Positions 1,173 through 60,990 of a DNA stretch of 64,000 bases are shown here, piece after piece. A model generated the notes under the pieces. The model was not told the origin of the DNA, searched no databases, and saw only the letters and a list, made by a program, of their open reading frames with translations. A program made the translations under genes and the position numbers. The first letter of the stretch is position 1. Each line of letters starts with the position of its first letter. This DNA is from Flavisolibacter longurius (GTDB lineage: Bacteria > Bacteroidota > Bacteroidia > Chitinophagales > Chitinophagaceae), in assembly GCA_013327885.1 (NCBI GenBank), contig JABUMY010000004.1, positions 310,001 through 374,000 on the forward strand, read 5' to 3'.

Positions 1173-1277
1173 AGCTGTGAGCTGTGAGCCATGAGCTTTG
1201 AGCTTTTGTTTTCGAATTACTAATAGTGAACCTTGCGCTGTAAGCTACCAACCCCAAACGCCAAACCCCAAACTCTC
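1173..1277. repeat. Two heptamer tandem arrays between convergent genes
   Basis: Directly after cdsA, five successive 7-mers run without a phase break at 1173-1207 (AGCTGTG, AGCTGTG, AGCCATG, AGCTTTG, AGCTTTT). A second array at 1250-1277 reads AACCCCA, AACGCCA, AACCCCA, AACTCTC and runs into the stop region of the amidase gene. Both have period 7, but the two arrays are not complementary to each other. See the finding on heptad-periodic intergenic repeats. Confidence 0.75.
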
Positions 1278-2427
1278 ATCGCATACTTTTCAACCAATCC
1301 TCTACACCCTTTACGATTTTCTTAGCCACCTCCTTGTGAAATTGCGGGTCCAGGATGCGCTGTTCGTCTTCCGCATTGCTCAGGAAGGCTACTTCCACCA
1401 GGCAATTGGGATATTCGGTAGGACCGCTCAGCGAAAAATTAAAGGCGCCAATGTTGCCGAAATTATGCAGGCCCAGTTCCAGCATTCGATCCAACACAGC
1501 TACCGACAACGGCCGGAAGCCAATGTGCCGGTAATAGGTGCTGGTGCCTTTGGCAGCCTTGTTGCCGGCAGAGTTGAGGTGGATGGAAAGCAACAGGTCA
1601 GGCGCTTCTTCGTTCAGCCGTTGCAGACGGTTCGCCATGGGGATATCGGTATCGTCGCAGCGGGTCATCACTACTTCAACACCTTTTTTGCAAAGTGCGG
1701 CTTCCAGCTCCTTGGCGATCTTCAGTGTGTAGTCTTTTTCCAGGACTTTTGAATTCAGACCCGAAGCACCGGTTTGGGCGCCGCCATGACCCGCATCTAC
1801 AGCAATTTTCAGGTGCTTGAGCTTCAGCTTTTCGGGCTGACGCTTCACCTTTACTACCAGCGCATTGCCGCGGTAAGTAATGGCGTGCCCCCAATGCTGC
1901 TTATTCTTGAGTTCAATGAATACCCGGAACACATCATCCTCGGTTTGCTCATACCACACATTCTTTATTTCCTTAACCGTTTTAAGCTGGGTGATCCAGT
2001 TGGTGTTGCTCACCGCACCAAAGATGTCCACCACGATCCGTGAGGGCTCTACCTGTTGCAGGCTGCGGTAGGGCAATTTTTCGGGCAGGCCAATGCTAAC
2101 ATAATCGGCCAGGCTGTCGCCCCAAACCCGCCAGCTACCGGTGAGGTACATGGGTAAAATATTTGCCGAATCATCGCGGCGGAAAGCGGTTTTGGGCAGG
2201 TAAGCTGCATGCTGCGCTGAAAGCTGCACTTTGTAGTCGCCCTTGCTGCTATCCACTACTTTAAGCAAAACATTGGAGTCGAGAAAGGTCATTTTGGCGC
2301 CGCCCAGGCGGTCTTCACCAAGGCCGAAGTTGAGGTAGGGCAGGCGGCCGGTCGTGCGGCCAAGAAGCGGTTGTGCGTTGGTTGTTTTCAGGAAAAAGGC
2401 AAAGGCCAGCAGGAGCAGGATTCTCAT
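1276..2427 (-). CDS. N-acetylmuramoyl-L-alanine amidase (Amidase_3)
   Basis: A 383-residue protein with an N-terminal signal peptide ending near TTNAQP. The C-terminal half is an Amidase_3 domain: the zinc-site His in IAVDAGHGG (about residue 215), a Glu in VLEKDYT, the second His in LLSIHLNS, and the catalytic Glu in CLVEVAFLSN. The N-terminal half looks like an SH3-like segment followed by an AMIN-like beta domain (PSRIVVDIFG onward), which may target peptidoglycan. The enzyme cleaves the bond between MurNAc and the stem peptide in the periplasm, in daughter-cell separation or wall turnover. It is transcribed alone, convergent with cdsA. Confidence 0.9.
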   Translation of the reverse strand: MRILLLLAFAFFLKTTNAQPLLGRTTGRLPYLNFGLGEDRLGGAKMTFLDSNVLLKVVDSSKGDYKVQLSAQHAAYLPKTAFRRDDSANILPMYLTGSWRVWGDSLADYVSIGLPEKLPYRSLQQVEPSRIVVDIFGAVSNTNWITQLKTVKEIKNVWYEQTEDDVFRVFIELKNKQHWGHAITYRGNALVVKVKRQPEKLKLKHLKIAVDAGHGGAQTGASGLNSKVLEKDYTLKIAKELEAALCKKGVEVVMTRCDDTDIPMANRLQRLNEEAPDLLLSIHLNSAGNKAAKGTSTYYRHIGFRPLSVAVLDRMLELGLHNFGNIGAFNFSLSGPTEYPNCLVEVAFLSNAEDEQRILDPQFHKEVAKKIVKGVEDWLKSMR

Positions 2428-2565
2428 GGCGGCAAGATAAAGAGAAAGGGCCTTTCCTTCGTAATAGTACGAGGGCCGTGGCGGTTAGTACCCAATTTTA
2501 GCGCCTGTTTTTGAAATCATCGGGAGGAAGGTTTATTTTGTCCTGTATCCTAAATTTTCCGTCCT

Positions 2566-3255
2566 ATGATACCGAATAGCTTATTTGGAATCACCTCTGT
2601 CGCCTGCTTTTCACTGCCCATTTTTGCTATCCTGTATTTCCGGTTGTACAAGCATATCAGTTTGATCGCCCTGATGGTGTATTACGTCCTGATCATCCTG
2701 CACTGCCTTGGCAGCAACACGGTACCACCGGCGCCAGACCTGCAAAATAGCTGGGAAGTGCTCTTCAACTATATCGAAATTCCACTGATGTTATCGGCAC
2801 TGCTATTTTTCTGTCCTGCCAAACAGAAAAAACAAAAGATCCACTTCCTGATCGCCTTTTTTGTTGCCTATGAATTGCTCATTGCTTTGTTTCATGGCTT
2901 TTCGGCTGCGGCCAGCATGTATGTGATGATGCCGGGCCTCCTGGTAGTGGTGTTGTATTCGCTGTTTCTTTTCCTGCGGCAGTTGCGGTTTAGCGTTATG
3001 CACCGCAAAAACTGGGGGCGGGTGTTGATGCTTGGGTCCCTCTTGTTTTCGTACGGTTGTTACCTGGCCATGTTCTATGCCTATTTCTTTGTGCAGAATG
3101 CCGATGTGGCCGGCATTTACGCAGCGCATTTTTTCTCTTCCAGCATTGCCGCAGTGCTGATGACCGTTGGCTTGTACATGATGCGCAACCGCATCAAAGA
3201 CCTGCAGGAATTAAAAGTGACAAGAAGAGAATTGCAGATGGTGTTTGGCGGATAA
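2566..3255 (+). CDS. Polytopic membrane protein of unknown function
   Basis: A 229-residue protein, mostly hydrophobic, with about seven predicted membrane helices and a short basic, helical C-terminal tail (RNRIKDLQELKVTRRELQ). No catalytic motif was recognised. The layout of seven helices with a cytoplasmic tail resembles membrane sensor modules, but there is no output domain and no linked kinase or sigma factor, so no function is assigned. The gene stands alone, divergent from the amidase gene and convergent with the acyl-CoA dehydrogenase gene. Confidence 0.7.
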   Translation: MIPNSLFGITSVACFSLPIFAILYFRLYKHISLIALMVYYVLIILHCLGSNTVPPAPDLQNSWEVLFNYIEIPLMLSALLFFCPAKQKKQKIHFLIAFFVAYELLIALFHGFSAAASMYVMMPGLLVVVLYSLFLFLRQLRFSVMHRKNWGRVLMLGSLLFSYGCYLAMFYAYFFVQNADVAGIYAAHFFSSSIAAVLMTVGLYMMRNRIKDLQELKVTRRELQMVFGG

Positions 3256-3257
3256 GA

Positions 3258-3381
3258 ACGTCAGACGTCAGACGTGAAACGATAAACGTGAAACGGGAGA
3301 AACGAAACCTTTTAATGGTTCGTTTCTCCCATTTTTCGCTTCGTTACTAACGTTTCGCGTTTGACGTTTGTCGTCTCACGT
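3258..3381. repeat. Paired heptamer arrays forming one long inverted repeat
   Basis: The left arm begins 2 nt after a stop codon and reads in exact 7-nt steps: ACGTCAG, ACGTCAG, ACGTGAA, ACGATAA, ACGTGAA, ACGGGAG. On the opposite strand the right arm (about 3317-3381) reads ACGTGAG, ACGACAA, ACGTCAA, ACGCGAA. The arms meet in a hairpin with the stem GGGAGAAACGAA / TTCGTTTCTCCC (one bulged A) near 3296-3331. The region lies between two convergent genes and could work as a bidirectional terminator. Confidence 0.8.
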
Positions 3382-3382
3382 A

Positions 3383-5161
3383 CTACAGCGCATACCTGTC
3401 TTCGCTGATCAGGTGGGCCGCAATGCGACGGCGGGCATCTTTGGAGTTGAACGGTTGTGCCTTCGTAAAGCGGCGCAGTCCCATCAGGATCATCCGTTGC
3501 TCATCGCCTTCGGCAAATGCATTGATAGCGTCTTTACCGTTCTTTAAGATACGGTCGGCCGCATCGTACAGAAAGCAGTTCAGTATGTCTTTGTGTACGC
3601 TGTCGGTACCTTCCTCAGAAAGCTTCATGACACGCAGCAGCAGGCTTTCGGCCACAAACGTATCGATGCTCATATCGGCAATGTTGAGTAAAACTTCCTG
3701 CTCGTTCTGCAACTGCATCATCAGCTTTTGCGCGGCGGCACCGGCTGTTAATAACACAGCTTTTTTAAAGCCTTCCACCAGCTTTTTTTCCTGGGCAAAC
3801 GGCGTTTCGTCTTCTTCACCAAAATCCGGAATGCTCATCAACTCTCCCTGCACTTTCATCGCAGCACCCATCAGGTTCAGGCGGCCCTGCATGGCACGCT
3901 TCAGGGTCATGTCCACAGTTAATAGGCGGTTGATCTCGTTGGTACCTTCGTAAATGCGGTTGATGCGGCTGTCGCGGTAAGCACGGGAAATATTGTATTC
4001 GGCGCTGTAGCCATTTCCGCCATGCACCTGCACGCCTTCGTCCACAACATAATCCAGCATTTCGCTGCCGTACACTTTCAGGATGGCGCACTCGATGGCA
4101 TATTCTTCGGCGGCACCCAGCAGGGCTTCGTTAAACGGTTTGCCTTCGGCCATCAGTTCGTGTTCGCGGTCGGCGATCCATTTGGCCGTGCGGTAAAGTG
4201 CCGCTTCGGTGGCAAAGGTGCGGATGGCCATCTCCGCCAGTTTGTACTGAATGGCGCCAAAGCTGGCGATAGGGGTTTTGAATTGCTCTCTTGTTTTGGC
4301 ATACTGCACCGAGGTAGTGGTGGCATGCTTGGCGCCGCCCAATGTGGCTGCGCACAGCTTCAGGCGGCCAATGTTCAGGATGTTGAAGGCGATCTTGTGG
4401 CCTTTGCCGATCTCACCCAGCACATTCTCCACCGGCACTTTGCAGTCCTGGAAATAAAGCTGCACGGTGGAAGAGCCTTTGATGCCCATCTTGTCCTCTT
4501 CGGGACCATTGCTGAATCCTTCAAATCCTCTTTCCACGATAAAAGCGGTAAACTTATCGCCGTCTACTTTGGCAAACACAGTATACACATCGGCAAAGCC
4601 GCCGTTGGTGATCCAAACTTTCTGCCCGTTAAGAATGTAATGCTTGCCGTCTTCACTTAACACGGCGGATGTTTTAGCCCCAAGTGCATCGGAGCCACTC
4701 CCGGGTTCTGTTAAGCCATAAGCACCGGCCCACTCACCGCTGATCAGTTTGGGAATGTATTTCTGCTTTTGCTGGTCGGTACCAAAGTATAAAATAGGGA
4801 GTGTGCCAATGCCTGTATGTGCCGAAATGGCCACTGAAAACGAATGCCCGGCACCGAGGTATTCGCTTACGATGGTGGAGGTGACAAAATCTTTTCCCAG
4901 CCCGCCGTATTCTTCGGGAAAGGCTACAGCCAGCATGCCTTGCTCCCCGGACTTTTGCAGCAGCGACCGCATATAGCCCGGTTCCATTTTATCCATCCGC
5001 TCCACGTTGGGCAGCACTTCGGTGCGGAGAAACTGGTCGCACATGTCGCGGATCATGGTCTGCTCTTCGCTGAATTCTTCGGGGATAAACGTTTCCCCGG
5101 GGGTACTGCTTTTCACAAGCCATTCGCCCCCTTTCAGGGTTGTGTTGATGGTAGCTTCCAT
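3383..5161 (-). CDS. Acyl-CoA dehydrogenase, VLCAD/ACAD9-like long form
   Basis: A 592-residue FAD enzyme, about 200 residues longer than short-chain types because of a C-terminal extension as in VLCAD-type dehydrogenases. Family blocks seen are YGLTEPGSGSDALG, KVWITNGGFADVYTVFAKV and, near residue 400, RINRIYEGTNEINR, which carries the Glu expected to abstract the alpha proton. It catalyses the first step of fatty acid beta-oxidation in the cytoplasm, passing electrons to an electron-transfer flavoprotein. No thiolase or hydratase gene is adjacent. It lies just upstream of a MarR-type regulator gene on the same strand, which may or may not control it. Confidence 0.93.
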   Translation of the reverse strand: MEATINTTLKGGEWLVKSSTPGETFIPEEFSEEQTMIRDMCDQFLRTEVLPNVERMDKMEPGYMRSLLQKSGEQGMLAVAFPEEYGGLGKDFVTSTIVSEYLGAGHSFSVAISAHTGIGTLPILYFGTDQQKQKYIPKLISGEWAGAYGLTEPGSGSDALGAKTSAVLSEDGKHYILNGQKVWITNGGFADVYTVFAKVDGDKFTAFIVERGFEGFSNGPEEDKMGIKGSSTVQLYFQDCKVPVENVLGEIGKGHKIAFNILNIGRLKLCAATLGGAKHATTTSVQYAKTREQFKTPIASFGAIQYKLAEMAIRTFATEAALYRTAKWIADREHELMAEGKPFNEALLGAAEEYAIECAILKVYGSEMLDYVVDEGVQVHGGNGYSAEYNISRAYRDSRINRIYEGTNEINRLLTVDMTLKRAMQGRLNLMGAAMKVQGELMSIPDFGEEDETPFAQEKKLVEGFKKAVLLTAGAAAQKLMMQLQNEQEVLLNIADMSIDTFVAESLLLRVMKLSEEGTDSVHKDILNCFLYDAADRILKNGKDAINAFAEGDEQRMILMGLRRFTKAQPFNSKDARRRIAAHLISEDRYAL

Positions 5162-5179
5162 GGTAGTTGTTTTAAGAAA

Positions 5180-5337
5180 AGCGAGTGGTAAGTAGTAAAT
5201 AGCAAGTCGCCACTACGCTTTTGAGTTATTACTGTTTTAAAAATTTCTATCGCTCGGTTTGCTGAAAGATGACCTGGGTTTACGCGGCGCAAGCTGCATT
5301 CAAGCGCTACTCGCTACTTGCCCCTCACTACTTACTC
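5180..5337. repeat. Paired heptamer arrays flanking the dehydrogenase-MarR gap
   Basis: The left arm at 5180-5207 reads AGCGAGT, GGTAAGT, AGTAAAT, AGCAAGT. The right arm at 5304-5337 reads, on the opposite strand, AGTAGTG, AGGGGCA, AGTAGCG, AGTAGCG. Both have period 7 and are roughly reverse complementary. The right arm overlaps the 3' end of the MarR gene and contains its TAG stop codon. Confidence 0.75.
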
Positions 5338-5771
5338 AAATTATCATACACCTTTTGCAGCACTTCTTTACACATTTCCACCTGCTCCTGCGGTACGCCG
5401 GCCAGGGCTTCATTCAGCGTCTCTTCGGCCAGTTGCATCGTGAGGCTTTCCAGGGTATCCGCGTTTTTGGTCAGAAAAACATTGTTGATCCGGCGGTCCC
5501 GGCCATCCGGCACCCGCTTTACCAGTGCCAGTTTTTCCAGGTTATCTACCAGCCGGGTGATGCTCGGTTTGTCGCGGAACGTGGCACTGCACAACTCCTG
5601 CTGGCTCATGCCGTCCGACTTCCACAAATGGTACAGCACACTCCATTGTTCGATCGTCAGGTTTACGCCGGCGCCGTTGAACTTTTTCTGCAGGCGCCTT
5701 GCGATGGCTGTCGACGCTTTGCCGGTGATAAAACTGTATAGCTCTCCTTTTTTGAAGTGAGTCAGTATCAT
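5328..5771 (-). CDS. MarR family transcriptional regulator
   Basis: A 147-residue winged-helix regulator starting at MILTHFKKGE. The centre shows the MarR pattern: LTIEQWSVLYHLWKSDG, then SQQELCSATFRDKPSITRLV (recognition helix region), then the wing KLALVKRVPDGRDRRINNVF. The frame stays open upstream for another 66 codons, but that stretch is low-complexity and not MarR-like, so the ATG at 5771 was chosen. MarR proteins are usually dimeric repressors of nearby genes that respond to small phenolic or other ligands. The ligand and target are unknown; the divergent glycosyltransferase gene and the dehydrogenase gene are the nearest candidates. Confidence 0.88.
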   Translation of the reverse strand: MILTHFKKGELYSFITGKASTAIARRLQKKFNGAGVNLTIEQWSVLYHLWKSDGMSQQELCSATFRDKPSITRLVDNLEKLALVKRVPDGRDRRINNVFLTKNADTLESLTMQLAEETLNEALAGVPQEQVEMCKEVLQKVYDNLSK

Positions 5772-8602: not shown

Positions 8603-8728
8603 GCGGGCTCAAAAAGGTATACGGAAAGGATTTCCTGCTGTTGATCGATATCATAGCGGAAATCCTTTCTTTTTTGGTAGCAAACAGTTACTTTAGTTGC
8701 TTCTTTATCCTCTAATGCGCCTATCTCC

Positions 8729-10774: not shown

Positions 10775-12622
10775 ATGAGTGACGCTATCAAACACGAATG
10801 TGGTCTTGCCTTCTTACGGCTTCGCAAATCATTTGCACACTACCAACAAAAATATGGATCGGTACTCTGGGGCTTGAACAAGATGTACCTGCTGATGGAA
10901 AAGCAGCACAACCGTGGCCAGGACGGTGCGGGGGTGGCTTCTGTCAAGCTAAATGTAGAACCCGGGTATCCTTTCCTATCGCGGATCCGCAGCAACGAAT
11001 CGCAGCCCATTGCCGATATTTTTAAAAAGATTGGCGAGGAGTTTAATGAGTTGCAAAAGTTCAATGTAGACATTGCCCAGTATCCCGGCCTGATGAAAGG
11101 GCATCTTTCGTTTTTGGGCGAACTCCTGCTGGGACACCTGCGTTATGGTACGCAGGGTCGCAATTCTGTTGATTTTTGCCATCCGTTTATCAAGCGGCAT
11201 ACAATCCCTGCACGCAACCTGGCGCTGGCCGGCAATTTTAACCTGGTCAACACCGACGAGCTGTTTGAAAGCATTGGCATGGAGCCCGGCAATTTCCAAA
11301 AGCAAAGCGACCTGGCTGCCATGATGGAAGTGCTGCACCATCAACTGGTAAAGGAAGATGAAGCAGCCCCGGAAAAGCTGGATATTGTTTCGGTGCTGAA
11401 GAAAACCATTCCCCGGTTCGACGGTGGCTTTCATGTGGGTGGCCTCACGGGCAACGGTATCGGCTTCGTGTTTCGCGATGCACATGGCATCCGGCCTTCC
11501 TACTATTTTATCGACGAAGACGTGGTAGTGGCAGCATCGGAACGGGCAGCTATCCGTACGGCCTTTAATGTAGGCGAAAATGAAGTGCAGGAACTGATGC
11601 CGGGGCAGGCGCTGATCGTGTATGAAAATGGCGAAGTAAAAATAGAGCAGATCGTAGAAGCCAAAGAACGCCGGGCCTGTTCGTTTGAACGTATTTATTT
11701 CTCCCGCGGGTCAGACGAAAAAATTTACCGCGAACGGTCGCAATTGGGTTATAACCTGAGTAAACAGGTGCTTGATGCCGTTAACTACGATTTAAAAAAT
11801 ACAATTTTCTCCTTTATTCCCAACACCGCCGAAGTGGCGTTTTACGGTCTTACCAAAGGCTGTGAAGACTACCTGAATAAGATCAAGCTCGAACGTATTC
11901 TTTCCTGGGGTAACAGTGTGGATCCGGTGAAGCTGGAAGAAATGATCAAGCGCAGGGTGCGGATGGAAAAGATCGCCATCAAGGATGTGAAGATGCGCAC
12001 CTTTATTACACAGGATGTAAGCCGCAACGAGATGGTGCAGCACGTGTATGACATTACTTACGGCACTGTGCGCAGGGGAGAAGATACGCTGGTGGTGATT
12101 GATGACTCCATTGTTCGCGGCACCACGCTGCGGGAGAGTATCATTCGCATGCTGGCCCGCCTGGAGCCAAAACGCATCATCATTGTTTCTTCGGCACCGC
12201 AGATCCGTTATCCTGATTGCTATGGCATTGACATGAGCAAGATGGGTGATTTTATTGCCTTTAACGCGGCGGTGGAATTGCTGAAGGAACGTGGCAACGA
12301 GGACCTGCTGAAAACATTGTACGAGCAGTGTAAAGACCTGCACACAAAAGACGAGCTGCATACGGTGAACGTGGTAAAGCAATTGTACAAATCCTTTACC
12401 AACGACGAGATCACGACCAAGATCGCAGAACTGATCACACCAAAAGATTTACCCCTACCCGTTGACGTTATCTACCAAACCATTGAGTCGCTGCACGAGG
12501 CCTGTCCGAGTAATTTGGGCGACTGGTATTTTACCGGCAACTACCCAACCCCCGGCGGCAACCGCGTGGTGAACAAAGCCTTTATGAATTACATGGAAGG
12601 CCGCAACGAAAGAGGTTATTAG
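10775..12622 (+). CDS. Amidophosphoribosyltransferase-like protein, long Bacteroidota form
   Basis: A 615-residue protein, about 110-150 residues longer than standard PurF. The N-terminal part is a class II glutamine amidotransferase domain, with its candidate catalytic Cys at position 9 in MSDAIKHECGLA and the NRGQDGAG block near residue 48. The C-terminal part is a phosphoribosyltransferase domain with VVIDDSIVRGTT near residue 440. PurF makes 5-phosphoribosylamine in purine synthesis. In this long form Cys-9 would need processing to become N-terminal, and insertions separate the usual motifs, so it may be a paralogue with another role. No other pur gene is adjacent. Confidence 0.85.
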   Translation: MSDAIKHECGLAFLRLRKSFAHYQQKYGSVLWGLNKMYLLMEKQHNRGQDGAGVASVKLNVEPGYPFLSRIRSNESQPIADIFKKIGEEFNELQKFNVDIAQYPGLMKGHLSFLGELLLGHLRYGTQGRNSVDFCHPFIKRHTIPARNLALAGNFNLVNTDELFESIGMEPGNFQKQSDLAAMMEVLHHQLVKEDEAAPEKLDIVSVLKKTIPRFDGGFHVGGLTGNGIGFVFRDAHGIRPSYYFIDEDVVVAASERAAIRTAFNVGENEVQELMPGQALIVYENGEVKIEQIVEAKERRACSFERIYFSRGSDEKIYRERSQLGYNLSKQVLDAVNYDLKNTIFSFIPNTAEVAFYGLTKGCEDYLNKIKLERILSWGNSVDPVKLEEMIKRRVRMEKIAIKDVKMRTFITQDVSRNEMVQHVYDITYGTVRRGEDTLVVIDDSIVRGTTLRESIIRMLARLEPKRIIIVSSAPQIRYPDCYGIDMSKMGDFIAFNAAVELLKERGNEDLLKTLYEQCKDLHTKDELHTVNVVKQLYKSFTNDEITTKIAELITPKDLPLPVDVIYQTIESLHEACPSNLGDWYFTGNYPTPGGNRVVNKAFMNYMEGRNERGY

Positions 12623-12674
12623 TGGTGAGCGGTGAGTGGTGAATGGTGAGTAGGGACACGCCGTGGCGTGTCCG
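12623..12674. repeat. Heptamer array and 9-bp palindrome directly after a stop codon
   Basis: Beginning at the base after the stop of the PurF-type gene, the units TGGTGAG, CGGTGAG, TGGTGAA, TGGTGAG, TAGGGAC run in unbroken 7-nt steps (12623-12657). They merge into a palindrome, GGACACGCC (12654-12662) with GGCGTGTCC (12665-12673). The GGTGAGT unit recurs at 41134-41287. Confidence 0.75.
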
Positions 12675-12815: not shown

Positions 12816-12850
12816 CAATAATCAATAATCAATAATCAATAACTCATCAT
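12816..12850. repeat. Heptamer tandem array CAATAAT
   Basis: Three identical CAATAAT units followed by CAATAAC and TCATCAT, all in one 7-nt register. Confidence 0.7.
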
Positions 12851-17522: not shown

Positions 17523-17867
17523 GCTATCTCTAATGTTTATTCGGTTAAATAATAGAGGCCGTGGGCAGGGCGAGAAGGGAAAGTCTGGATAAGTCAAAAG
17601 TCAAAAGGTACCATTCAAAACCTTTGGAACAAGCACTTTCATATAGGTTTCCAGATGCGTAAACGTACTACACCGTTTCCTGTAAAAGGAGATGCAAAGC
17701 AAGCTTCTTTCAACCGTTTTACTTTTGAGTTTTACTTATTTATACTGAGTATAGAATAACTTTCATTTCCTTCTGCACAATGCCGATAACCCCGGATATA
17801 TATTGATCCTCTTTCGAGGGAATAAGCAAATATAATTTTTTTAGGTTAGCGACGTACAATTGCTTTC
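17523..17867. other. 345-nt intergenic region between holB and ricT
   Basis: It contains the paired heptamer arrays at 17591-17738 and an AT-rich stretch near 17745-17850. No terminator with a T-tract and no plausible gene was seen. Confidence 0.5.
17591..17738. repeat. Paired heptamer arrays between holB and ricT
   Basis: The left arm is AAGTCAA, AAGTCAA, AAGG (17591-17608). On the opposite strand the right arm (17716-17738) reads AAGTAAA, ACTCAAA, AGTAAAA. The arms are approximately complementary and about 110 nt apart. Confidence 0.6.
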
Positions 17868-19085
17868 TTACACCGAAACCACCACCCCGCTTTTGATGAT
17901 GTGGAAGAGCTTAATGGTGAGGGCATGAAAAAGGATCTTGGCGTTGGCATTGCGTTCGATGTAGTAAGAGGCTTTGTCCAGCTCTTCGGCAATGGCTTCT
18001 TTTTGCTCCACCGAAATCTGCTTGTTCAGCTTCAGGGCAAAATCACGTTCGCCGGACGACATGCCTGCCAGCAAAGTTTCCTGCAACGCACCGGAACTGA
18101 TCTGCAGGCGCAGCGCCTGTTCCAGCAGGTGAATAAAATAACGCAGGAACTGCTTTTGCGCTTCGCGGCCCAGGCGGGCAATTTCTTCAATGATCTTTAC
18201 CTGGGCGGCAGGGCCGGTACGCAAAATCGCGTTGAGCCATTCCCGCAGCAGGTTAAAATAATCTTCGCCGGCGTGCTGCAAAAGCTGCAGCGCCTCGCGG
18301 TAATTGCCTTCGCAGGCGTTGGCAATAAGCTTGGCGCTATCGGCGGCAACGCCGGCTTTGGCCACAAGGGTTGCCTCGATATCTTCGGGCTGCAGGGCGG
18401 GGATCTTTACCAACTGGCAGCGGGAAAGAATGGTGTTGAGAATGGCGCCTTCGTTTTCGGCCACCAGGATAAAAAGCGTGTCGGCCGGCGGCTCTTCGAT
18501 CAGTTTCAGGAGTTTGTTGCCTTCCCTGCCCAGGTACTCGGGCATCCAAAGCACCAGTATCTTGTAACCGCTTTCAAAACTTTTGAGATTGAGTTTGCGA
18601 ATGATGTCGTTGCACTCCTGGGCGGTGATGTTGCCCTGCTTGTTTTCGGCACCAAGGGATTGCAGCCAGTCGTACACATTGCCATAAGGTAACTGCCTTA
18701 TAAACTCCCGCCATTCGGCGCCATAATCGGAACTCAGGGGAGGTGAGCCTGGTTTTTTGGTAATGACCGGGTAAGTATAATGAATATCGGGGTGCACCAT
18801 GCCGGCCGCTTTTTGATACGATGCCTGTTTCTGCATCCAGGCATCGGCTTCGCCGGGAGTGGAAGGCAGCGTTACTTCCACCGGTTCGCCAAACAGGGAA
18901 GCTTCCCCGCTTTTTTCAGCTGTAGGCAAAAGGGAAACATAGTTGGCAAAAGCAAGGGCCAGGGGCAGGGCGCCACTGCCTTCTTTTCCTAAAAAAAGTA
19001 GGGCATGGCTGATGCGGTTATGCTGCACCATTTCTACCAGGTGCTGCTTTACTTCCTGCTGACCGATAACATCGTTGAATAACAT
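17868..19085 (-). CDS. holB: DNA polymerase III delta' subunit
   Basis: A 405-residue AAA+ clamp-loader subunit. It opens with MLFNDVIGQQEVKQHLVEMV and HALLFLGKEGSGALPLA, where the P-loop is degenerate (no GKT/S), as usual for delta', which does not hydrolyse ATP. ILVLWMPEYLG and LKLIEEPPADTLFILVAEN match the Walker B-like and sensor regions. A 50-residue insert near 60-115 replaces the usual short zinc-binding stretch. The protein helps load the sliding clamp at the replication fork. ricT follows on the same strand, the usual holB-ricT order, although the gap is wide. Confidence 0.9.
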   Translation of the reverse strand: MLFNDVIGQQEVKQHLVEMVQHNRISHALLFLGKEGSGALPLALAFANYVSLLPTAEKSGEASLFGEPVEVTLPSTPGEADAWMQKQASYQKAAGMVHPDIHYTYPVITKKPGSPPLSSDYGAEWREFIRQLPYGNVYDWLQSLGAENKQGNITAQECNDIIRKLNLKSFESGYKILVLWMPEYLGREGNKLLKLIEEPPADTLFILVAENEGAILNTILSRCQLVKIPALQPEDIEATLVAKAGVAADSAKLIANACEGNYREALQLLQHAGEDYFNLLREWLNAILRTGPAAQVKIIEEIARLGREAQKQFLRYFIHLLEQALRLQISSGALQETLLAGMSSGERDFALKLNKQISVEQKEAIAEELDKASYYIERNANAKILFHALTIKLFHIIKSGVVVSV

Positions 19086-19086
19086 C

Positions 19087-19202
19087 GTCTGAACTGGGAT
19101 TAGTGAGATGATGGGATTAATAGGATCACTAAAAAAGGCCGCTGGTAAGGCGGCCTCAAATATCCTACAAATCCGGGTTATCCCATCTATCCCGGTTCAG
19201 AC
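19087..19202. repeat. Intergenic palindromic element with GTCTGAAC ends and central hairpin
   Basis: The region between holB and the peroxidase gene is almost entirely one inverted repeat. Its ends GTCTGAACTGGGAT (19087-19100) and ATCCCGGTTCAGAC (19189-19202) pair with one mismatch. Inside are GGGAT-containing units at roughly 8-9 nt steps on both arms, and a central stem AGGCCGC / GCGGCCT near 19136-19156. Confidence 0.7.
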
Positions 19203-19205
19203 AAT

Positions 19206-21933: not shown

Positions 21934-21940
21934 GGTTGCT

Positions 21941-22035
21941 ATGCGGATATGCGAATTTGCAGATATGCGGATAAACGTCTACCTAATTTAATCTATTTTC
22001 TTCATCCGCATATTCTCATATTTACATATTCGCAC
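21941..22035. repeat. Paired octamer arrays between radA and comF
   Basis: The left arm at 21941-21972 is ATGCGGAT, ATGCGAAT, TTGCAGAT, ATGCGGAT. The right arm at 22004-22035 is ATCCGCAT, ATTCTCAT, ATTTACAT, ATTCGCAC, the near reverse complement. Both have an exact 8-nt period. The right arm ends 1 nt before the radA stop codon. Confidence 0.85.
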
Positions 22036-22036
22036 A

Positions 22037-23413
22037 TCAAAACAAGTGACGGTACACTTCTTCCACTTTGCTCAGCATCACCACTTCAATATTGAACTTA
22101 TGCTTGCTCAACCCTTTCTGGTTGTATTTGGAAACAATGATCTTGCTAAAGCCAAGCTTTTCGGCTTCGGCAATGCGTTGTTCAATGCGGTTCACGGCTC
22201 GTATCTCACCACTCAAGCCTACTTCGCCGGCAAAACAAATGTCGTGTGGCACTGGTACATCTTCGTATGATGAAAGTAAGGCTACCAGCACCGCCAGGTC
22301 AATCGAAGGATCTTCCACTTTTAAGCCACCGGCCAGGTTGAGAAAAACATCCTTCACCCCAAAATGAAAACCGCCGCGCTTTTCCAGCACCGCTAGCAGG
22401 AGTTGTAAGCGTCTTGTATCAAAACCACTCACGGTACGTTGCGGTGTGCCGTAAACCGATTGCGTAACCAGCGCCTGCACCTCGATAAGAAGCGGCCGTT
22501 GTCCTTCGATAGTAGCAGCGATGGCAATGCCACCCAGTGATTCTTCTTTTTGCGTCAGCAGGATCTCACTTGGATTCAGCACAGGGTTCATGCCGTTGTC
22601 GTTCATCTGGTAAATACCCAATTCGGCCGTGCTGCCAAAGCGGTTTTTCAGTGTACGCAAAATGCGGTAGGCATAATGACGGTCGCCTTCAAACTGCAAC
22701 ACGGTATCTACCATGTGCTCTAAAAGTTTGGGACCGGCAATAGCACCTTCTTTGGTGATATGACCAATCAGGAAGACCGGTGTATTGGTTTCTTTGGCGA
22801 ACTGCTGAAACTCCGCGGCACATTCGCGAATCTGGGATACGCTTCCCGGTGAGGATTCAACAAAAGAAGATTCCAGCGTTTGAATGGAATCGACAATGAT
22901 CAGTTGCGGCTTGAGCTTTTTTATTTCCTGGAAGATGATGTTGGTCGATGTTTCGGTGAGCAGGTAGAAATGTTCATTCTGCATGTTCAACCGGTCGGCA
23001 CGCATCTTTATTTGCTGCTCGCTTTCTTCGCCGCTTATATATAAAGTAGTGATGCCTTTTAACTGCAATCCCATTTGCAGGAAGAGCGTTGATTTTCCAA
23101 TGCCCGGTTCTCCGGCCACCAGCACAATGCTTCCCGGTACAATGCCACCACCGAGTACACGATTCAGTTCTGCATCGGATGATAAGATGCGTGGTGATTC
23201 TTTTGTTTCAACTTCATTTAAGTGACGGGTTCTTTTGGTGGTTTCTTTATCGATGTAAGAAGTCCAGTCGTTAGTGCCGCCTTTCTTTGTTTCTTTTTGA
23301 ACCAGTTCTTCCACAAAGGTGTTCCATTGTTGACACCCGGGACATTTGCCTAACCATTTTGCACTTTCATAGCCACAGTTCTGACAGAAGTAGGCCGTTT
23401 TTACTTTCGACAT
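22037..23413 (-). CDS. radA: DNA repair and recombination protein RadA
   Basis: A 458-residue protein with the RadA layout: an N-terminal zinc finger (YFCQNCGYESAKWLGKCPGC, residues 8-27), a RecA-like ATPase with Walker A GEPGIGKST near residue 102, the RadA-specific KNRFG motif near 254, and a C-terminal Lon-protease-like domain without a catalytic role. RadA drives branch migration of recombination intermediates and is needed in transformation and DNA repair. Length is standard. The start is the ATG preceding SKVKTAYFCQNCG. The gene is divergent from the zinc peptidase gene across a 431-nt gap. Confidence 0.95.
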   Translation of the reverse strand: MSKVKTAYFCQNCGYESAKWLGKCPGCQQWNTFVEELVQKETKKGGTNDWTSYIDKETTKRTRHLNEVETKESPRILSSDAELNRVLGGGIVPGSIVLVAGEPGIGKSTLFLQMGLQLKGITTLYISGEESEQQIKMRADRLNMQNEHFYLLTETSTNIIFQEIKKLKPQLIIVDSIQTLESSFVESSPGSVSQIRECAAEFQQFAKETNTPVFLIGHITKEGAIAGPKLLEHMVDTVLQFEGDRHYAYRILRTLKNRFGSTAELGIYQMNDNGMNPVLNPSEILLTQKEESLGGIAIAATIEGQRPLLIEVQALVTQSVYGTPQRTVSGFDTRRLQLLLAVLEKRGGFHFGVKDVFLNLAGGLKVEDPSIDLAVLVALLSSYEDVPVPHDICFAGEVGLSGEIRAVNRIEQRIAEAEKLGFSKIIVSKYNQKGLSKHKFNIEVVMLSKVEEVYRHLF

Positions 23414-40506: not shown

Positions 40507-41134
40507 CGTACGTGATACGTTAAACGACAAACGTGAAAGAGGGCGGCAATTGCTAATGGCCTGTTGCCTGTTGCTAATCGCCGGTTGGCTAACAGCCTGC
40601 AATACGGATTTTGTGCAGAAAGAAAGGGGCTATTTCAAGATCGATTTTCCCGAAAAAAAATACCAGGTTTTCGACAGGCCCGGTTTCCCTTACACCTTTG
40701 AATATCCTGTTTATGGCAACATTATCCAGGACTCATTATTCTTTGACGAAAAGGCTGAAAATCCGTACTGGATCAATGTTGACTTTCCGCAGTTTGACGG
40801 GCGGCTGCACCTGAGTTACAAAGAAGTGCAGCGGTATTCCTTTGATTCATTGGTAAACGATGCGTTCACTCTCTCGTACAAGCAGCATACATCGCGGGCA
40901 TCGGCCATTCAGTCCGAACCTTTTGCAACTCCTAACGGTGTCAGTGGGGTTTATTTTAACCTGAAAGGAAATGCGGCAACGGCCAACCAGTTCTTCGCAA
41001 CCGATTCGGTGGAGCATTTTCTCCGTGGTGCCCTTTATTTTAACGCTACGCCCAACGAAGATTCGCTTCGTCCCGTGAACAATTTTTTGAAAGAGGATAT
41101 GGACCACCTGATACAGACCTTGCGGTGGAGATAG
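40496..41134 (+). CDS. gldD: Gliding motility lipoprotein GldD
   Basis: A 212-residue lipoprotein beginning at an ATG that overlaps the end of gldE by 11 nt; an ATG at 40556 (MACCLLLIAG) is the alternative. The lipobox is GWLTAC. The body YFKIDFPEKKYQVFDRPGFP and the paired PYTFEYPVYG and WINVDFPQFDGRLHLSYKEV are typical of GldD, needed for gliding and, through the type IX machinery, surface protein export in Flavobacterium. The region between the two candidate starts is itself a heptamer repeat (40510-40537), so the N-terminus may be a recent addition. Confidence 0.92.
   Translation: MKSSVRDTLNDKRERGRQLLMACCLLLIAGWLTACNTDFVQKERGYFKIDFPEKKYQVFDRPGFPYTFEYPVYGNIIQDSLFFDEKAENPYWINVDFPQFDGRLHLSYKEVQRYSFDSLVNDAFTLSYKQHTSRASAIQSEPFATPNGVSGVYFNLKGNAATANQFFATDSVEHFLRGALYFNATPNEDSLRPVNNFLKEDMDHLIQTLRWR
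40510..40537 (+). repeat. Heptamer array inside the 5' end of gldD
   Basis: Four units ACGTGAT, ACGTTAA, ACGACAA, ACGTGAA in one 7-nt register, 3 nt after the gldE stop. They belong to the same unit family as 3258-3381 and 44681-44771. Confidence 0.75.
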
Positions 41135-41287
41135 TGAATGGTGAGTGGTGAGTGGTGAGTGGTGAGTGGTGCTTTACTATATTCAGATTCATTCAATTTT
41201 GTTTGAAAGGACTTATTGAACGAGTTTGGATGACGCTACTGAAAGATGTTTTAACGACTCACCACTGACCACTCACCATTCACCATG
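41134..41287. repeat. Paired GTGAGTG heptamer arrays between gldD and DUF3109 gene
   Basis: The left arm starts at the last base of the gldD stop codon: GTGAATG, then GTGAGTG four times (41134-41168), then GTGCTTT. The right arm at 41256-41287 reads on the other strand ATGGTGA, ATGGTGA, GTGGTCA, GTGGTGA. Arms are complementary around an 85-nt spacer and the second arm ends 23 nt before the next start. Confidence 0.85.
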
Positions 41288-44605: not shown

Positions 44606-44646
44606 AGAAGTTCACGAGTTCACTTGTTCACGGGCTCACGAGTTGA
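44606..44646. repeat. Octamer-type array after the deacetylase gene
   Basis: Units of roughly TTCACGAG, TTCACTTG, TTCACGGGC, TCACGAGT follow the stop codon with a period near 8 nt. It lies next to the larger heptamer array at 44681-44771, but the two are not complementary. Confidence 0.6.
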
Positions 44647-44680: not shown

Positions 44681-44771
44681 GTTCCGTTTCACGTTTGACG
44701 TCTCCCGTTTGACGTTTCTCGTCGCACATCTCACTTCTCTCGTTTCTCGTTTCTCATCTCCCGTCTCGCCT
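44681..44771. repeat. Thirteen consecutive heptamers overlapping a permease 3' end
   Basis: Read on the plus strand, 13 units of exactly 7 nt follow each other without a phase break: GTTCCGT, TTCACGT, TTGACGT, CTCCCGT, TTGACGT, TTCTCGT, CGCACAT, CTCACTT, CTCTCGT, TTCTCGT, TTCTCAT, CTCCCGT, CTCGCCT. On the minus strand these are ACGTGAA/ACGTCAA/ACGAGAA-type units. The stop codon and last 13 codons of the permease lie inside. Confidence 0.9.
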
Positions 44772-45747: not shown

Positions 45748-45850
45748 GGTTCCTTTGCTCTTTTTGCCCCGCAAAGAAAAGAAGATTACTGCATGCCGCT
45801 TGCAGGATTGCGGATGAGTGGTTGGTGCGCAGGAACAGGAGGAGGGAGCA

Positions 45851-45949
45851 GGTTTGAGGGTCGATGTTTGAGGTTTGACGTTCGATGTTCGAGGACAGTG
45901 TTCGGGGTTGAAGGTTTGATGTTCGATGTTTGCTGTGCAAGGTTCAAGG
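45851..45949. repeat. Array of about 14 heptamers upstream of the permease gene
   Basis: Six exact 7-nt units (GGTTTGA, GGGTCGA, TGTTTGA, GGTTTGA, CGTTCGA, TGTTCGA) are followed by one 8-nt unit and seven more heptamers (TTCGGGG, TTGAAGG, TTTGATG, TTCGATG, TTTGCTG, TGCAAGG, TTCAAGG). On the minus strand they read as AACATCR/AACGTCA-like units. Confidence 0.85.
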
Positions 45950-46116: not shown

Positions 46117-46258
46117 AGTTGCCCCGCCATTTATGGCGGGGGTGACAATCATGGGATTAAATAAGTAGCGGCTATAGCCAAACCGGTTTGGCTATAGCCG
46201 CTATTAAGACAGCCTATCAAATCTTATCTTATCCCCGCGCTAAAGCGGCGGGGCAACT
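46117..46258. mobile_element. 142-bp MITE-like element with nested palindromes
   Basis: Terminal inverted repeats AGTTGCCCCGCC (46117-46128) and GGCGGGGCAACT (46247-46258) are perfect. Each end also forms its own hairpin (CCCCGCCA / TGGCGGGG at 46122-46141; CCCCGC / GCGGGG at 46233-46253). The centre, 46166-46203, is a perfect 38-bp palindrome with half-site TAGCGGCTATAGCCAAACC. No transposase gene and no clear target duplication were seen. Confidence 0.65.
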
Positions 46259-52983: not shown

Positions 52984-52987
52984 GAGT

Positions 52988-56984: not shown

Positions 56985-57107
56985 GGGCCGCTAAGGTAAG
57001 AAGGGGAGTGGTTTAGACAATTGGCAACGGGCAATTTGCCATAGGCAAAAAGCAACCGGCTGCCGGCTAAAATTTGCTGGAAATACCGTACAGGTAAAGC
57101 TTGTAAC

Positions 57108-57341
57108 TCAGGAAGTTTTTACCGTTTGCTGGGACGCGGCGTATTTTAATACAGCCAGTACCGTTTCGGTGCGGGGAGAAACCGTAAGGTTATTCAGGCG
57201 TTCCTGCGCTGCTTTCAACACAGCCAATTTTTCACGGAGTGTCCAATCTTTCTGCAGTGCCTCTTCGATCGCAGCAGTCTGCTGTGTGGAGGTTTCTTTG
57301 TACAGGTACAAAAGCATGTCCTCCGGCGTAAAATTGTGCAT
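57108..57341 (-). CDS. Small helical protein, function unknown
   Basis: A 77-residue, acidic to neutral helical protein: FTPEDMLLYLYKETSTQQTA, AIEEALQKDWTLREKLAVLK. The start resembles the N-terminus of anti-sigma-factor or zinc-finger-like proteins (an E-D-M-L-x-Y-L-Y-K-E pattern), but it has no cysteines. Composition and start make it look like a real gene. It lies between nth and the DivIC-like gene on the same strand. Confidence 0.6.
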   Translation of the reverse strand: MHNFTPEDMLLYLYKETSTQQTAAIEEALQKDWTLREKLAVLKAAQERLNNLTVSPRTETVLAVLKYAASQQTVKTS

Positions 57342-57433
57342 AGGCTTTCTTATAACTAGGTGGTGAGCAGGTTTTGCTTATATGCCTTCTTAAACGCAGC
57401 CGTGGGACGGATATTGTGCGGCAGCACCGGAAA

Positions 57434-57739
57434 TTACTTTTCTTCGGCGGGTACAATAATGAACAGGTCTTCATTTTCCCGCTTCATCTGGTATTTTTCC
57501 CGGGCAAATTTTTCAATGGCCGCCGCGTTGGATTGAATGTCTCTCGAGAACTTTTTACTCTCTTCGATCTTTTCTGCAAAATAGGCTTTGTTGTCTTCTA
57601 TCTCGGCCAGTTCCTTACGCCGCTCCAGTTGGGTGAACATGTCATTCTTGTCAAAGAAGATCATCCAAACGGCAAATACCGCCAGCGACAGCAGGTATTT
57701 GTTACGCAGGAATGAAGGAATAAAGTGAATGAACTTCAT
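57434..57739 (-). CDS. Septum formation initiator (DivIC/FtsB family)
   Basis: A 101-residue protein with one membrane helix (KYLLSLAVFAVWMIFFDK) followed by a coiled coil (about 35-75; LERRKELAEIEDNKAYFAEK) and the family motif EKFAREKYQMKRENEDLFII. Such proteins join the divisome at mid-cell. It lies next to eno, as in many bacteria, although the enolase terminator separates them. Confidence 0.9.
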   Translation of the reverse strand: MKFIHFIPSFLRNKYLLSLAVFAVWMIFFDKNDMFTQLERRKELAEIEDNKAYFAEKIEESKKFSRDIQSNAAAIEKFAREKYQMKRENEDLFIIVPAEEK

Positions 57740-57844
57740 GGCGGTGGAATTGGCGGCTAAAATAAGGACTCCCTTTGTAAAATTTGTACTGTTTCTTGCT
57801 GAATCCTACTACTGGCCTGCTTTTTCGGTAAAAGCTACCGATAT

Positions 57845-57880
57845 AAAAAAGGGTTGACAAGGATTTCTCCTTATCAACCC
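57845..57880 (-). terminator. Terminator of the enolase transcript
   Basis: On the minus strand the stem GGGTTGATAAGGA / TCCTTGTCAACCC (57880-57851) is followed by TTTTTT. Confidence 0.85.
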
Positions 57881-57902
57881 AATAACGTATCAACCTTTCA
57901 AC

Positions 57903-59219
<1,317 letters not shown>

Positions 59220-59288
59220 TTATGCAGCCCATATGTGGGAATGGCTTCAGCAACGCAAAGAAAGGAAGAGATGCAGTAGCGGCAAAAT

Positions 59289-59603
59289 CTATACTTCTTT
59301 ATCCAGCTTGTCCTGAAGAAATCCAATTTCACGCCGGTTATGAAGAACAGCGTTGATGATGATGATTTCTTCTTTTTCCTTTCTGCGGTAATAAATGCTG
59401 TATGGAAATTTACGTAAAGGGAGTTTCCTGTTGTCTTTATAAACGATGCGGTGTTCAACCTGGCCGGACTTCAGGTTATCGATTGCCGTGACAAGTTCTT
59501 CTACAAAGTTCTTAAGTGCAATGCCAGATTGCTGACGATACCATTGTTTGATTTCGTAGATATCATCGCGAGTGGTTTGGGTAAGTTGAACCTTCCACGC
59601 CAT
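59289..59603 (-). CDS. RelE/ParE family toxin
   Basis: A 104-residue protein from the ATG at 59603, which shares one base with the antitoxin TGA (TGATG). The RelE/ParE fold shows in KVQLTQTTRDDIYEIKQWYR, LPLRKFPYSIYYRRKEKEEI and VLHNRREIGFL. Toxins of this family cleave mRNA at ribosomes or block gyrase; which it does is not clear. With the gene at 59603-59821 it forms a compact toxin-antitoxin pair. Confidence 0.85.
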   Translation of the reverse strand: MAWKVQLTQTTRDDIYEIKQWYRQQSGIALKNFVEELVTAIDNLKSGQVEHRIVYKDNRKLPLRKFPYSIYYRRKEKEEIIIINAVLHNRREIGFLQDKLDKEV

Positions 59604-59821
59604 CAATCCAGGTTTTTTATATCTTCTTTGATATCGTCCCAGTTGTGCAAGGTTTCAGCCCCAGTATCAATACGTTGATTGCGGTTGTCCAATGCAAGTT
59701 TTTGCCAATCCTGTATTTCATCCTCATCGATCTGAAGCAAACGGTTTATGGCAAATAAAATTCGCTCGTCGTCGGTTTGCTGGATTGCTTCAATGATCCG
59801 GGATTTATCGATTACTGTCAT
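59603..59821 (-). CDS. Antitoxin of the RelE/ParE-type pair
   Basis: A 72-residue acidic protein: MTVIDKSRIIEAIQQTDDER, LFAINRLLQIDEDEIQDWQ. It is rich in Glu and Asp at the end, as expected for a small antitoxin binding a basic toxin. It has no obvious DNA-binding motif, so regulation may be by the complex. It lies 30 nt from the gldA stop, so it could be read from the gldA transcript. Confidence 0.7.
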   Translation of the reverse strand: MTVIDKSRIIEAIQQTDDERILFAINRLLQIDEDEIQDWQKLALDNRNQRIDTGAETLHNWDDIKEDIKNLD

Positions 59822-59851
59822 ATCCCAACAATTTATTTAAAGATAGAATTT

Positions 59852-60772
59852 TCAACTGTTTTGCGGTTGTGCACCCGTCAGCCCACGAAACACTTCTTCC
59901 AGCGATTGGCTTTCGCTTTGCAACGAAACAATATTGAGGTTTTGCTCCAGCGCTAATTGCAGTAACTGCTTGCGTACTGTTTCCGGCTCGGACGTCTCCA
60001 TCGTCCAGGTATGCGTATCTATTTTATTCACGTTGTTGACGCCTTGCAGGCGGCGCAGCCATTCGGCTTCCAGGGCTTCTTTGAATTGCACCCGCACAAT
60101 ATCGTTTGTGGAGCGTTGCTGCAGATTGGTGAGCTTGTCATCGGCCACGATCTTGCCGCGGTTGATGATGATCACCCGGTCGCAGATGGCTTCCACTTCC
60201 TGCAGAATGTGCGAAGAGAAGAGCACCAGTTTATCACGGCCCTGTTCTTTGATCACATTGCGTATCTCCACGATCTGGTTGGGGTCAAGGCCGCTGGTAG
60301 GCTCATCCAGTATCAAAACCTCAGGTTTGTGCAGCAGGGCGGCAGCAAGGCCTACCCGCTGTTTGTATCCTTTGGAAAGCTGCCCGATCTTTTTTGCTTT
60401 TTCCCTTGTCAGTCCCACCTGTTCTACAACCTGGCTGATGGCCTGTTGCTTGTTGGCAACCTGGTGTACATCGGCAATAAATTCGAGGTACTCTTTGATG
60501 TACATGTCGTAATAAAGCGCATTGGATTCGGGCAGGTAGCCGATCTTTTTCTTGGCCGCCTGCGGGTCCCTGATCACATCCACACCGCTCACGGAAACGG
60601 CGCCGCTGTCAGGTGCCAGGTAGCCGGTGATCATTTTCATGGTAGTGCTTTTGCCGGCACCGTTGGGGCCGAGAAAGCCCACGATCTCTCCCTTGTTTAC
60701 AGTAAAAGATATGGCATCCACTGCTTTTTGCTCACCGTAAGTTTTCGTCAGGTTATTTACCGTAATGGACAT
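59852..60772 (-). CDS. gldA: Gliding-motility ABC transporter ATPase GldA
   Basis: A 306-residue ABC ATPase: Walker A GFLGPNGAGKST, signature QLSKGYKQRVGLAAAL, Walker B LILDEPTSGLDP and a C-terminal extension (about 225-306) typical of GldA. In Flavobacterium GldA works with GldF and GldG. Neither gldF nor gldG is next to it in this window. It is downstream of a repeat-rich gap and the small membrane protein gene, and upstream of the toxin-antitoxin pair. Confidence 0.9.
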   Translation of the reverse strand: MSITVNNLTKTYGEQKAVDAISFTVNKGEIVGFLGPNGAGKSTTMKMITGYLAPDSGAVSVSGVDVIRDPQAAKKKIGYLPESNALYYDMYIKEYLEFIADVHQVANKQQAISQVVEQVGLTREKAKKIGQLSKGYKQRVGLAAALLHKPEVLILDEPTSGLDPNQIVEIRNVIKEQGRDKLVLFSSHILQEVEAICDRVIIINRGKIVADDKLTNLQQRSTNDIVRVQFKEALEAEWLRRLQGVNNVNKIDTHTWTMETSEPETVRKQLLQLALEQNLNIVSLQSESQSLEEVFRGLTGAQPQNS

Positions 60773-60804
60773 GGTTCAAAGATAGAGTAGGGATGTGCAG
60801 AATA

Positions 60805-60990
60805 GCGAACAAGGATTTCGAACCGCAGAACAGATGAACAAGGAAGAAAGAATCACGAAGTGTTGACAGTTTATCTTTTCCTTTTGCTCACAGGCGGTCT
60901 GCTATAGTTAGAAATGCCGAACAGAGGACACCTCCTTCGAAATTCCTTGTTCCTTGTTCATCTGTTCGATATTCTTTTCACTCATTCCTC
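60805..60990. repeat. Paired short-period arrays upstream of gldA
   Basis: The left arm (60805-60860) contains GAACAAGGATTTCGAA, GAACAGAT, GAACAAGGA. On the other strand the right arm (60931-60985) contains CGAACAGATGAACAAGGA, ACAAGGAATTTCGAAGG. The arms are near-complementary around a 70-nt spacer. Periods are near 8. Confidence 0.65.

Follow-up and report, generated by a model that had tools for sequence, protein, structure and literature searches.

What kind of element is an intergenic tandem array whose unit sequence drifts while its step of 7 or 8 nt is kept, and which is often matched, across the same spacer, by its own reverse complement? Such arrays recur in a stretch of 64,000 nucleotides (the window, C44:310001–374000) of the 5.75 Mb genome of a Flavisolibacter-like soil bacterium (own genome, G000). 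Heptamer arrays of unexplained origin are known from scattered bacteria. Here, the own genome was compared with a sister species (G010) and a more distant congener (G006), with median protein identities to it of 88% and 76%, respectively. It is proposed, at roughly even confidence, that these are DNA-level inverted arrays that were born as matched pairs, grew by slippage and are tolerated after stop codons. The sister species provide a natural experiment, in which arms are exchanged in pairs and show a strong polarity with no sign of selection on RNA; the origin of the pairs, whether by template switching, mobility or both, therefore becomes testable.

Abundance, position and strand polarity of the arrays

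Arrays were detected by comparing each base with the base one period further on, scoring a match as +1 and a mismatch as −1.5 and summing over the run. At a run score of at least 12, 854 kb of the own genome yielded 89 period-7, 21 period-8 and 9 period-6 runs, with harmonics at 14 and 21, against 0, 1 and 0 in one second-order Markov simulation surveyed in the same way. The excess of 7-nt periodicity over simulated sequence, which a first-pass annotation of the window had made the test of its proposal, is thus plainly present. Arrays of period 7 and 8 together numbered 12.7 per 100 kb in the own genome, 7.2 in G010 and 4.8 in G006, and 0 in Escherichia coli MG1655, where 200 kb contained no array of either period. 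Many different words and steps of 6, 7 and 8 nt occur within one genome, with no one dominant unit word.

Within the window, seven period-7 segments reached a run score of at least 14, against none in each of five simulations. At a score of at least 9.5, 15 places lay outside gene calls, 14 of them with a period of 7 or 8, which agrees with the at least twelve places reported in the first-pass annotation. Its 8-nt step at 21941–22035 was also correct, and was measured at 21940–22031.

The arrays extend to relatives. Named records supplied 80 gldD loci (1.37 Mb in all; many carry the label Chitinophagaceae, and one is the sister species itself, F. longurius, presumably G010). These loci contained 44 period-7, 16 period-8 and 5 period-11 arrays, against 0, 2 and 0 in a simulation of them. 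The best named hit to the GldD protein of the window, from F. longurius BT320, is 87% identical to it. gldD is a Bacteroidota gene. Two gldD-bearing contigs (L083 and L108) are labelled Candidatus Babeliales and Beijerinckiaceae, and these bins look mixed or mislabelled. Period-11 arrays occur in some relatives (L197, L213, L059, L073 and L076), with TTATA- or ATAAG-type units in several. In a phylum-wide sample of 20 stretches of 20 kb, arrays of period 7 or 8 were present in 2 of 11 stretches from the family, order or class and in 1 of 9 from other classes; the sample therefore says little about genomes outside the family.

Genes were called by a codon-usage script of the authors' own, and gene starts are therefore approximate. 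By these calls, 7 of 92 period-7 hits and none of 26 period-8 hits were genic. Period-7 arrays were present in 28 of 98 convergent spacers, 35 of 362 tandem spacers and 6 of 110 divergent spacers. The first-pass annotation had placed the beginnings of arrays at or just after stop codons, and this was borne out: 53 arrays were counted in the 12 nt that follow a stop, where placing arrays at random in the same spacers predicts 26. Starts showed no excess, with 13 arrays near them against 12 predicted by the same placement. A backup-stop function, in which a step coprime to 3 would bring stops into all frames, was rejected, as all three frames are blocked by 31 of 88 near-stop arrays and by 318 of 880 phase-permuted ones, which is no excess.

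The arrays have a marked strand polarity. In the sense strand, arrays within 12 nt of a stop had more G than C in 70 of 88 cases and more C than G in 12, the three species being pooled; array-free post-stop sequence had no such lean (289 against 269 of 613). In far arrays, C prevailed over G on the sense strand in 33 of 49 (own genome) and 21 of 26 (G010); in G006 they were evenly split (4 and 4 of 8). Among mirrored array pairs, the 5′ arm was G-rich in 79 of 92, C-rich in 10 and tied in 3, with G-rich to C-rich ratios by species of 34 to 2, 22 to 5 and 23 to 3, counts in which loci that are orthologous between the three species are not independent of one another. The same count for non-array inverted repeats gave 24 against 19 of 45. 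A further 34 pairs from the other loci of the gldD search showed the same 5′ arm polarity, 26 against 3 with 5 ties, of which 2 are runs of N.

Two explanations draw on this polarity. Break-end extension, in which each 3′ end of a break would be extended with G-rich repeats before the two were joined, like fused telomere repeats, fits the head-to-head geometry, the G-rich 5′ arm and units of 6–8 nt. It is nevertheless highly improbable: the words are many and different, the loop between two arms can keep a terminator common to the sister species, and searching for RVT_1 turned up one gene (two matches in one frame), on which result the telomerase-like idea was dropped. RNA- or DNA-binding sites with a 7–8 nt step, such as C-rich far arms serving as Rho loading sites, would suit the C-rich far arrays of two of the three species. 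Some unit positions vary more than others while the step is kept (z = −4.4), in a phase test that is uncorrected for units copied from each other. The many unrelated words in one genome and their fast turnover make binding sites a distinctly improbable explanation.

Mirrored arms and their turnover between sister species

Mirror arms were assessed in the 41 window spacers longer than 30 nt, each of which was compared with the best of 20 shuffles by inverted-repeat (IR) score. Six non-terminator pairs, judged by eye to be of the mirror kind, exceeded their best shuffle (3265/3340, 5180/5306, 19084/19180, 21937/22001, 41138/41254 and 60828/60935); a short, non-periodic pair at 8624/8658 (score 12, best shuffle 10) was excluded from this count. 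The arms and the repeat at 17591 are as follows.

3265..3306, + strand: left mirror arm with the ACGTSAA word, overlapping an array at 3258–3298 just past the stop at 3255; IR score 24, best shuffle 11
3340..3381, − strand: right mirror arm, partner of 3265–3306
5180..5203, + strand: weak left mirror arm of period 7; IR score 12, best shuffle 10
5306..5329, − strand: weak right mirror arm of period 7, partner of 5180–5203
17591..17609, + strand: AAGTCAA repeat, whose partner at 17713–17731 only equals shuffles; IR score 13, best shuffle 13
19084..19109, + strand: non-periodic left arm of a mirror pair of the GTCTGAACYGGGAT type; IR score 14, best shuffle 8; both arms conserved in G010
19180..19205, − strand: right arm of the GTCTGAACYGGGAT-type pair, not periodic
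21937..21975, + strand: period-8 mirror arm with the TATGCGGA word; IR score 19, best shuffle 8; same word on both arms in G010
22001..22039, − strand: period-8 mirror arm, partner of 21937–21975
41131..41171, + strand: GTGAGTG array overlapping the gldD stop, with the left mirror arm at 41138–41170; IR score 27, best shuffle 11
41254..41286, − strand: ACTCACC right mirror arm at gldD
60828..60860, + strand: loosely periodic left arm of a GAACAAGG element, which is dispersed and about 140 nt long; IR score 25, best shuffle 11
60935..60967, − strand: right arm of the GAACAAGG element, containing a repeat at 60943–60959

Because the pair at 19084 is not periodic (period-test values of 0.32 and 0.22 at 7 and 8), the periodic mirror pairs number five, plus 17591/17713, which only equals its shuffles. 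Mirror arms had been claimed in the first-pass annotation at six or more loci; the arms are real, and the count is slightly too high. The GAACAAGG arms at 60828/60935 are loosely periodic, at 0.54 and 0.58.

Pairing above chance extends to all three genomes. Terminator-like hairpins were separated from arms by loop and length before counting. In spacers of 50–500 nt, non-terminator arms scoring at least 14 were found in 59 of 488 (own genome), 46 of 427 (G010) and 32 of 284 (G006), against none of 1,199 mononucleotide-shuffled spacers. The complementarity of an array to its own spacer averaged 11.0, against 7.1 for other array-bearing spacers, and all 40 array-bearing controls were beaten by 17 of 94 arrays in the own genome (2.3 expected) and by 13 of 39 in G010 (1.0 expected). 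Counted as ranks in the top two of 41, this excess over controls stood out more in tandem spacers (17 of 50) than in convergent ones (4 of 35) of the own genome; in G010 the two classes were alike (12 of 26 and 5 of 11). Where an array-type arm had three or more same-word counterparts at other places in its genome, its own partner was strictly the closest in 15 of 41 cases (6.0 expected), or in 20 of 52 (8.0 expected) with non-periodic perfect repeats included.

Plain slippage, with complementarity arising by chance, would account for whole-unit changes in length and for the likeness of neighbouring units. Similarity between units falls with the distance between them (0.79, 0.74, 0.73, 0.69 and 0.66), as local duplication predicts, in a set for which the detector itself favours adjacent likeness. 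However, with no shuffled spacer reaching the arm threshold, complementarity above that of array-bearing controls and the coupled replacement of arms described below, slippage by itself can hardly be the explanation.

Orthologous spacers numbered 340 for G000/G010 and 102 and 83 for the remaining species pairs; for the comparisons that follow, including the one-species-only and G.U counts, divergent spacers and spacers longer than 450 nt were dropped. Arms were present in both species in 22 of 387 orthologous non-divergent comparisons, and the word was kept on both arms in 15, replaced on both in 7 and mixed in none. Three of the 22 are not array-type. The remaining 19 divide into 12 with the same word on both arms, 7 with another word on both and 0 mixed, and the arms, whose co-variation the first-pass annotation had proposed to test, tend to change together, in a comparison whose requirement for arms in both species favours unmixed cases. 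The seven paired replacements represent six loci, since one locus was counted in two species pairs.

Replacement can alter the step as well as the word. At C33:40223, period-7 GTTTGTA arms in one sister species correspond to period-8 ATTTGATA arms in the other, and at C44:272239, period-8 GGTTCACA arms correspond to period-7 ACGTGAA arms. The gldD spacer has GTGAGTG arms in the own genome and ACGTGAA-type words on both sides in G006, where the two arms are nearly identical to each other. Similarly, the sister species has GGATGACAG-type words on both sides at window locus 3265/3340 (by eye; outside the six counted replacement loci). In the RadA–ComF spacer, an early count by eye across the genus found the TATGCGGA-word period-8 mirror pair only in G000 and G010.

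Because the both-armed set cannot hold loci broken by one changed arm, pairs present in one species only were also counted. For 48 array-type pairs of this kind, the sister lacked both arms in 34, kept one in 11 and kept both in 3; for 25 other pairs, these numbers were 16, 7 and 2, and random spacers in the same test lacked both arms in 70 of 73. Over 67 array-type comparisons, both, one or neither arm was kept in 15, 11 and 41, against about 6, 29 and 32 under independence, a contrast that uneven divergence between loci inflates. Some of the 11 one-arm cases retain sub-threshold traces of the other arm. Furthermore, unit number can change in one arm alone: the left arm at gldD has 5 units against about 1.5, with the length of the right arm unchanged.

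A selected RNA element, with paired arms forming a 3′-end stem that protects mRNA or aids termination, would fit the post-stop position of the arrays and their rarity in divergent spacers. An earlier count of 174 spacers, made under weaker alignment rules, also found 24 two-sided paired changes against about 7 expected; this excess means that arms co-vary and is silent on the cause. At paired arm sites in tandem spacers, one-sided transitions kept G.U in 55 cases and made A.C in 64 (one-sided p = 0.82), and two-sided changes were paired in 14 and broken in 19, in a test that may count a locus from both species' side and whose events are not independent. The same test on terminator-like hairpins leaned towards G.U, with 18 against 10 (one-sided p = 0.09), and two-sided changes were paired in 13 and broken in 3. 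Arrays were no more conserved than other spacer (0.61 against 0.65 and 0.67), all three values being inflated by global alignment of unrelated spacer. Array pairs are gained and lost fast, and several convergent spacers carry a different word on each side. Tandem spacers with arrays had somewhat fewer terminators; convergent spacers did not lean this way, the association of arrays with terminators was significant in no length class, and a role as terminator substitutes was set aside. There is no sign that the arms are maintained as RNA hairpins. Selection for 3′-end structure, which the first-pass annotation had listed among possible causes, is not supported by the G.U and two-sided counts, and a selected RNA element is unlikely. 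The other two causes on that list, a mobile palindrome and templated hairpin copying, are possible origins of the pairs. Foldability alone is no ground for calling such spacers RNA devices.

The remaining arrays of the window are listed below. Three places with different words on their two sides (1173/1250, 12621/12816 and 44609/44685) are unmirrored.

1173..1206, + strand: AGCTGTG array of period 7, following the stop at 1168; the 1250 array does not mirror it
1250..1273, − strand: AACCCCA array of period 7, whose end lies 2 nt short of a minus-strand gene's stop
12621..12649, + strand: period-7 array GTGAGTG, overlapping the stop at 12622
12816..12842, + strand: period-7 array CAATAAT, not complementary to the array at 12621
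44609..44640, + strand: period-8 array AGTTCACG, 9 nt past a stop
44685..44767, − strand: period-7 array CGTTTCA/CGTCTCT, with a word that differs from the 44609 array
45850..45892, + strand: period-7 array AGGTTTG

Two further structures were noted. Non-periodic mirror arms of the TCTGAACC type occur in the window at 19084–19205 and, by eye, in the radA spacer of G017 (L139); a sequence resembling these arms is presumably found in other Bacteroidota. A perfect 17-bp hairpin, TAGCGGCTATAGCCAAA, lies at 46166–46203, inside a long spacer.

Word spread, dispersed copies and the origin of the pairs

Individual words are shared well beyond single loci. The 23-mer GGTGAGTGGTCAGTGGTGAGTGG, searched for with up to 2 mismatches and overlapping matches counted, had 90 matches in the own genome, and a genome from a different genus had 59. 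Of 147 genomes of the family, 22 contained it, as did 21 of 100 genera; the two congeners sampled had no match. A phase-permuted control, for which one permutation was tried, was present in none of the 147 family genomes. Since GGTGAGTGGTCAGTGGTGAGTGG is nearly symmetric, its backward reading also matches array-rich genomes (66 matches in the own genome), and the permuted word was therefore relied on. The permuted word read backwards had 40 matches in G128, possibly another amplified word. Comparison of whole arrays gave a weak signal of words common to genera (16.4 against 15.3, control standard deviation 0.3), and the single-word search a stronger one.

It is tentatively possible that the arrays are a self-spreading class, in which a shared stock of 7- and 8-nt words would be copied between loci and genera, set down as pairs with a G-rich 5′ arm, and both arms exchanged at once.

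REPIN-like mobile hairpins, in which some transposase favouring post-stop sites would move inverted pairs together with their loop, would likewise explain the sporadic spread of GGTGAGTGGTCAGTGGTGAGTGG across genera. The GAACAAGG element is of this kind in several respects, with distinguishable arms, a loop partly common to its copies, and dispersed copies in the window (60828–60967), elsewhere in G000 (C11:201.9k, C11:225.8k, C44:388.0k and C44:405.1k) and in G006 (C1:27.9k). In 815 kb of G010, its core pattern (at most 3 mismatches) had only two matches, both within genes. The loop differs too at several replaced loci (by eye), and the loops of same-word loci are more alike on average (mean score 11.1 against 7.7 shuffled; 70 pairs). 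However, just 7 of the 70 same-word loop pairs scored at least 20, against 1 of 1,265 different-word pairs. These seven include the GAACAAGG family and ACGTGAA loci, and at the latter the array may simply run into the loop. At C44:384204, moreover, the loop between the arms contains a terminator common to both sister species.

The transposases of the genome point the same way. There are eight Y1_Tnp (RAYT-like) matches (L202–L209), of which at least six are flanked by other, GC-rich palindromes of the AAGCCCGGAGGGCTT kind (by eye); the L204 match also has a GTGAGTG stretch upstream. These genes and palindromes have the look of an ordinary REP/RAYT system that exists alongside the arrays. It is unlikely that RAYT transposases are the agents, and REPIN-like mobility in general is a doubtful explanation.

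For the proposed birth of arrays as matched pairs, replication would copy one arm into its reverse complement by template switching; alternatively, an inverted block may be copied from another locus. Each arm would then gain and lose whole units by slippage and drift by point mutation, and persistence in the post-stop spacer would reflect tolerance more than function. Spread of a word between loci would need a further step beyond template switching and slippage. In the parts of their work drawn on here, Monttinen and Loytynoja (2022, PMC8794818) describe template switching as creating and repairing stems, with both arms made in one event, and associate it with RNA stems in which G-C pairs outnumber C-G pairs and U-A pairs outnumber A-U pairs. 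The G-rich 5′ arm of 79 in 92 pairs agrees with the G-C excess.

Several observations weigh against this origin. The U-A excess was not seen, as T exceeds A in 35 of 92 5′ arms, A exceeds T in 56 and the two are equal in 1. No intermediate of a copying event was seen. Of the 48 array-type pairs that are complete in a single species, 11 have one arm alone preserved in the sister, and 26 of the 41 array-type arms have a same-word arm elsewhere at least as close as their own partner. The shared fate of arms may reflect uneven spacer divergence or recombination between species. Finally, slippage and template switching do not explain GGTGAGTGGTCAGTGGTGAGTGG, with its 90 and 59 matches and none in two congeners.

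Comparison with known systems

The first-pass annotation knew of no published description, and this holds only in part. Rehm et al. (2015, PMC4692102), in the sections drawn on here, described heptamer repeats, GGGAATC and GGGGA(T/C)T, which in Xanthomonas and Nostoc are intergenic and form inverted pairs. Two Xanthomonas genomes contain 186 and 183 GGGAATC arrays with 70 and 75 inverted pairs, few of them in divergent spacers, and the G-rich strand is the coding strand after stops, as in 70 of 88 arrays here. The present arrays, likewise intergenic and in inverted pairs of that polarity, are a variant of this published kind. They differ in that each Xanthomonas or Nostoc organism is described as having one motif family, capable of forming G-quadruplexes, whereas many words and steps of 6, 7 and 8 nt are found here. 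Unlike in that description, both arms of a locus can have a different word in a sister species.

Intergenic heptamer arrays were also described by MacGregor (2015, PMC4679880, in the portions considered), as TAACTGA direct repeats in Beggiatoaceae, Cyanobacteria and five Bacteroidetes; some Bacteroidetes spacers contain other heptamers that vary between relatives. In contrast to the arrays described here, the TAACTGA repeats lie mostly just upstream of starts in the main genome and consist of one word, with one indirect repeat. Among long simple sequence repeats, heptanucleotides are the most frequent (Mrazek et al. 2007, according to PMC4679880 and PMC4692102); the 7-nt excess and the idea of slippage are alike, and mirrored arms are not among the features described in those reports as far as they are drawn on here.

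REPINs (Bertels and Rainey 2011, PMC3116915, in part) are extragenic inverted doublets with a spacer between, as here. They consist of REP palindromes linked to RAYT genes, whereas the present arms are periodic and no RAYT link was found in the flanks of the Y1_Tnp matches. Inverted repeats in general are over-represented between genes in almost all phyla, with template switching discussed as a possible cause (PMC4060949); the intergenic excess is alike, and the passages of that study considered here do not describe periodic arms. The template-switch hairpins of PMC8794818 are shown, in the portion considered, for RNA genes and not for periodic intergenic arrays.

A literature search, with subscription journals mostly outside its reach, found no report of paired word replacement between sister species. 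The G-rich 5′ arm and the 23-mer word present in 22 of 147 genomes of the family are additions to the first-pass annotation.

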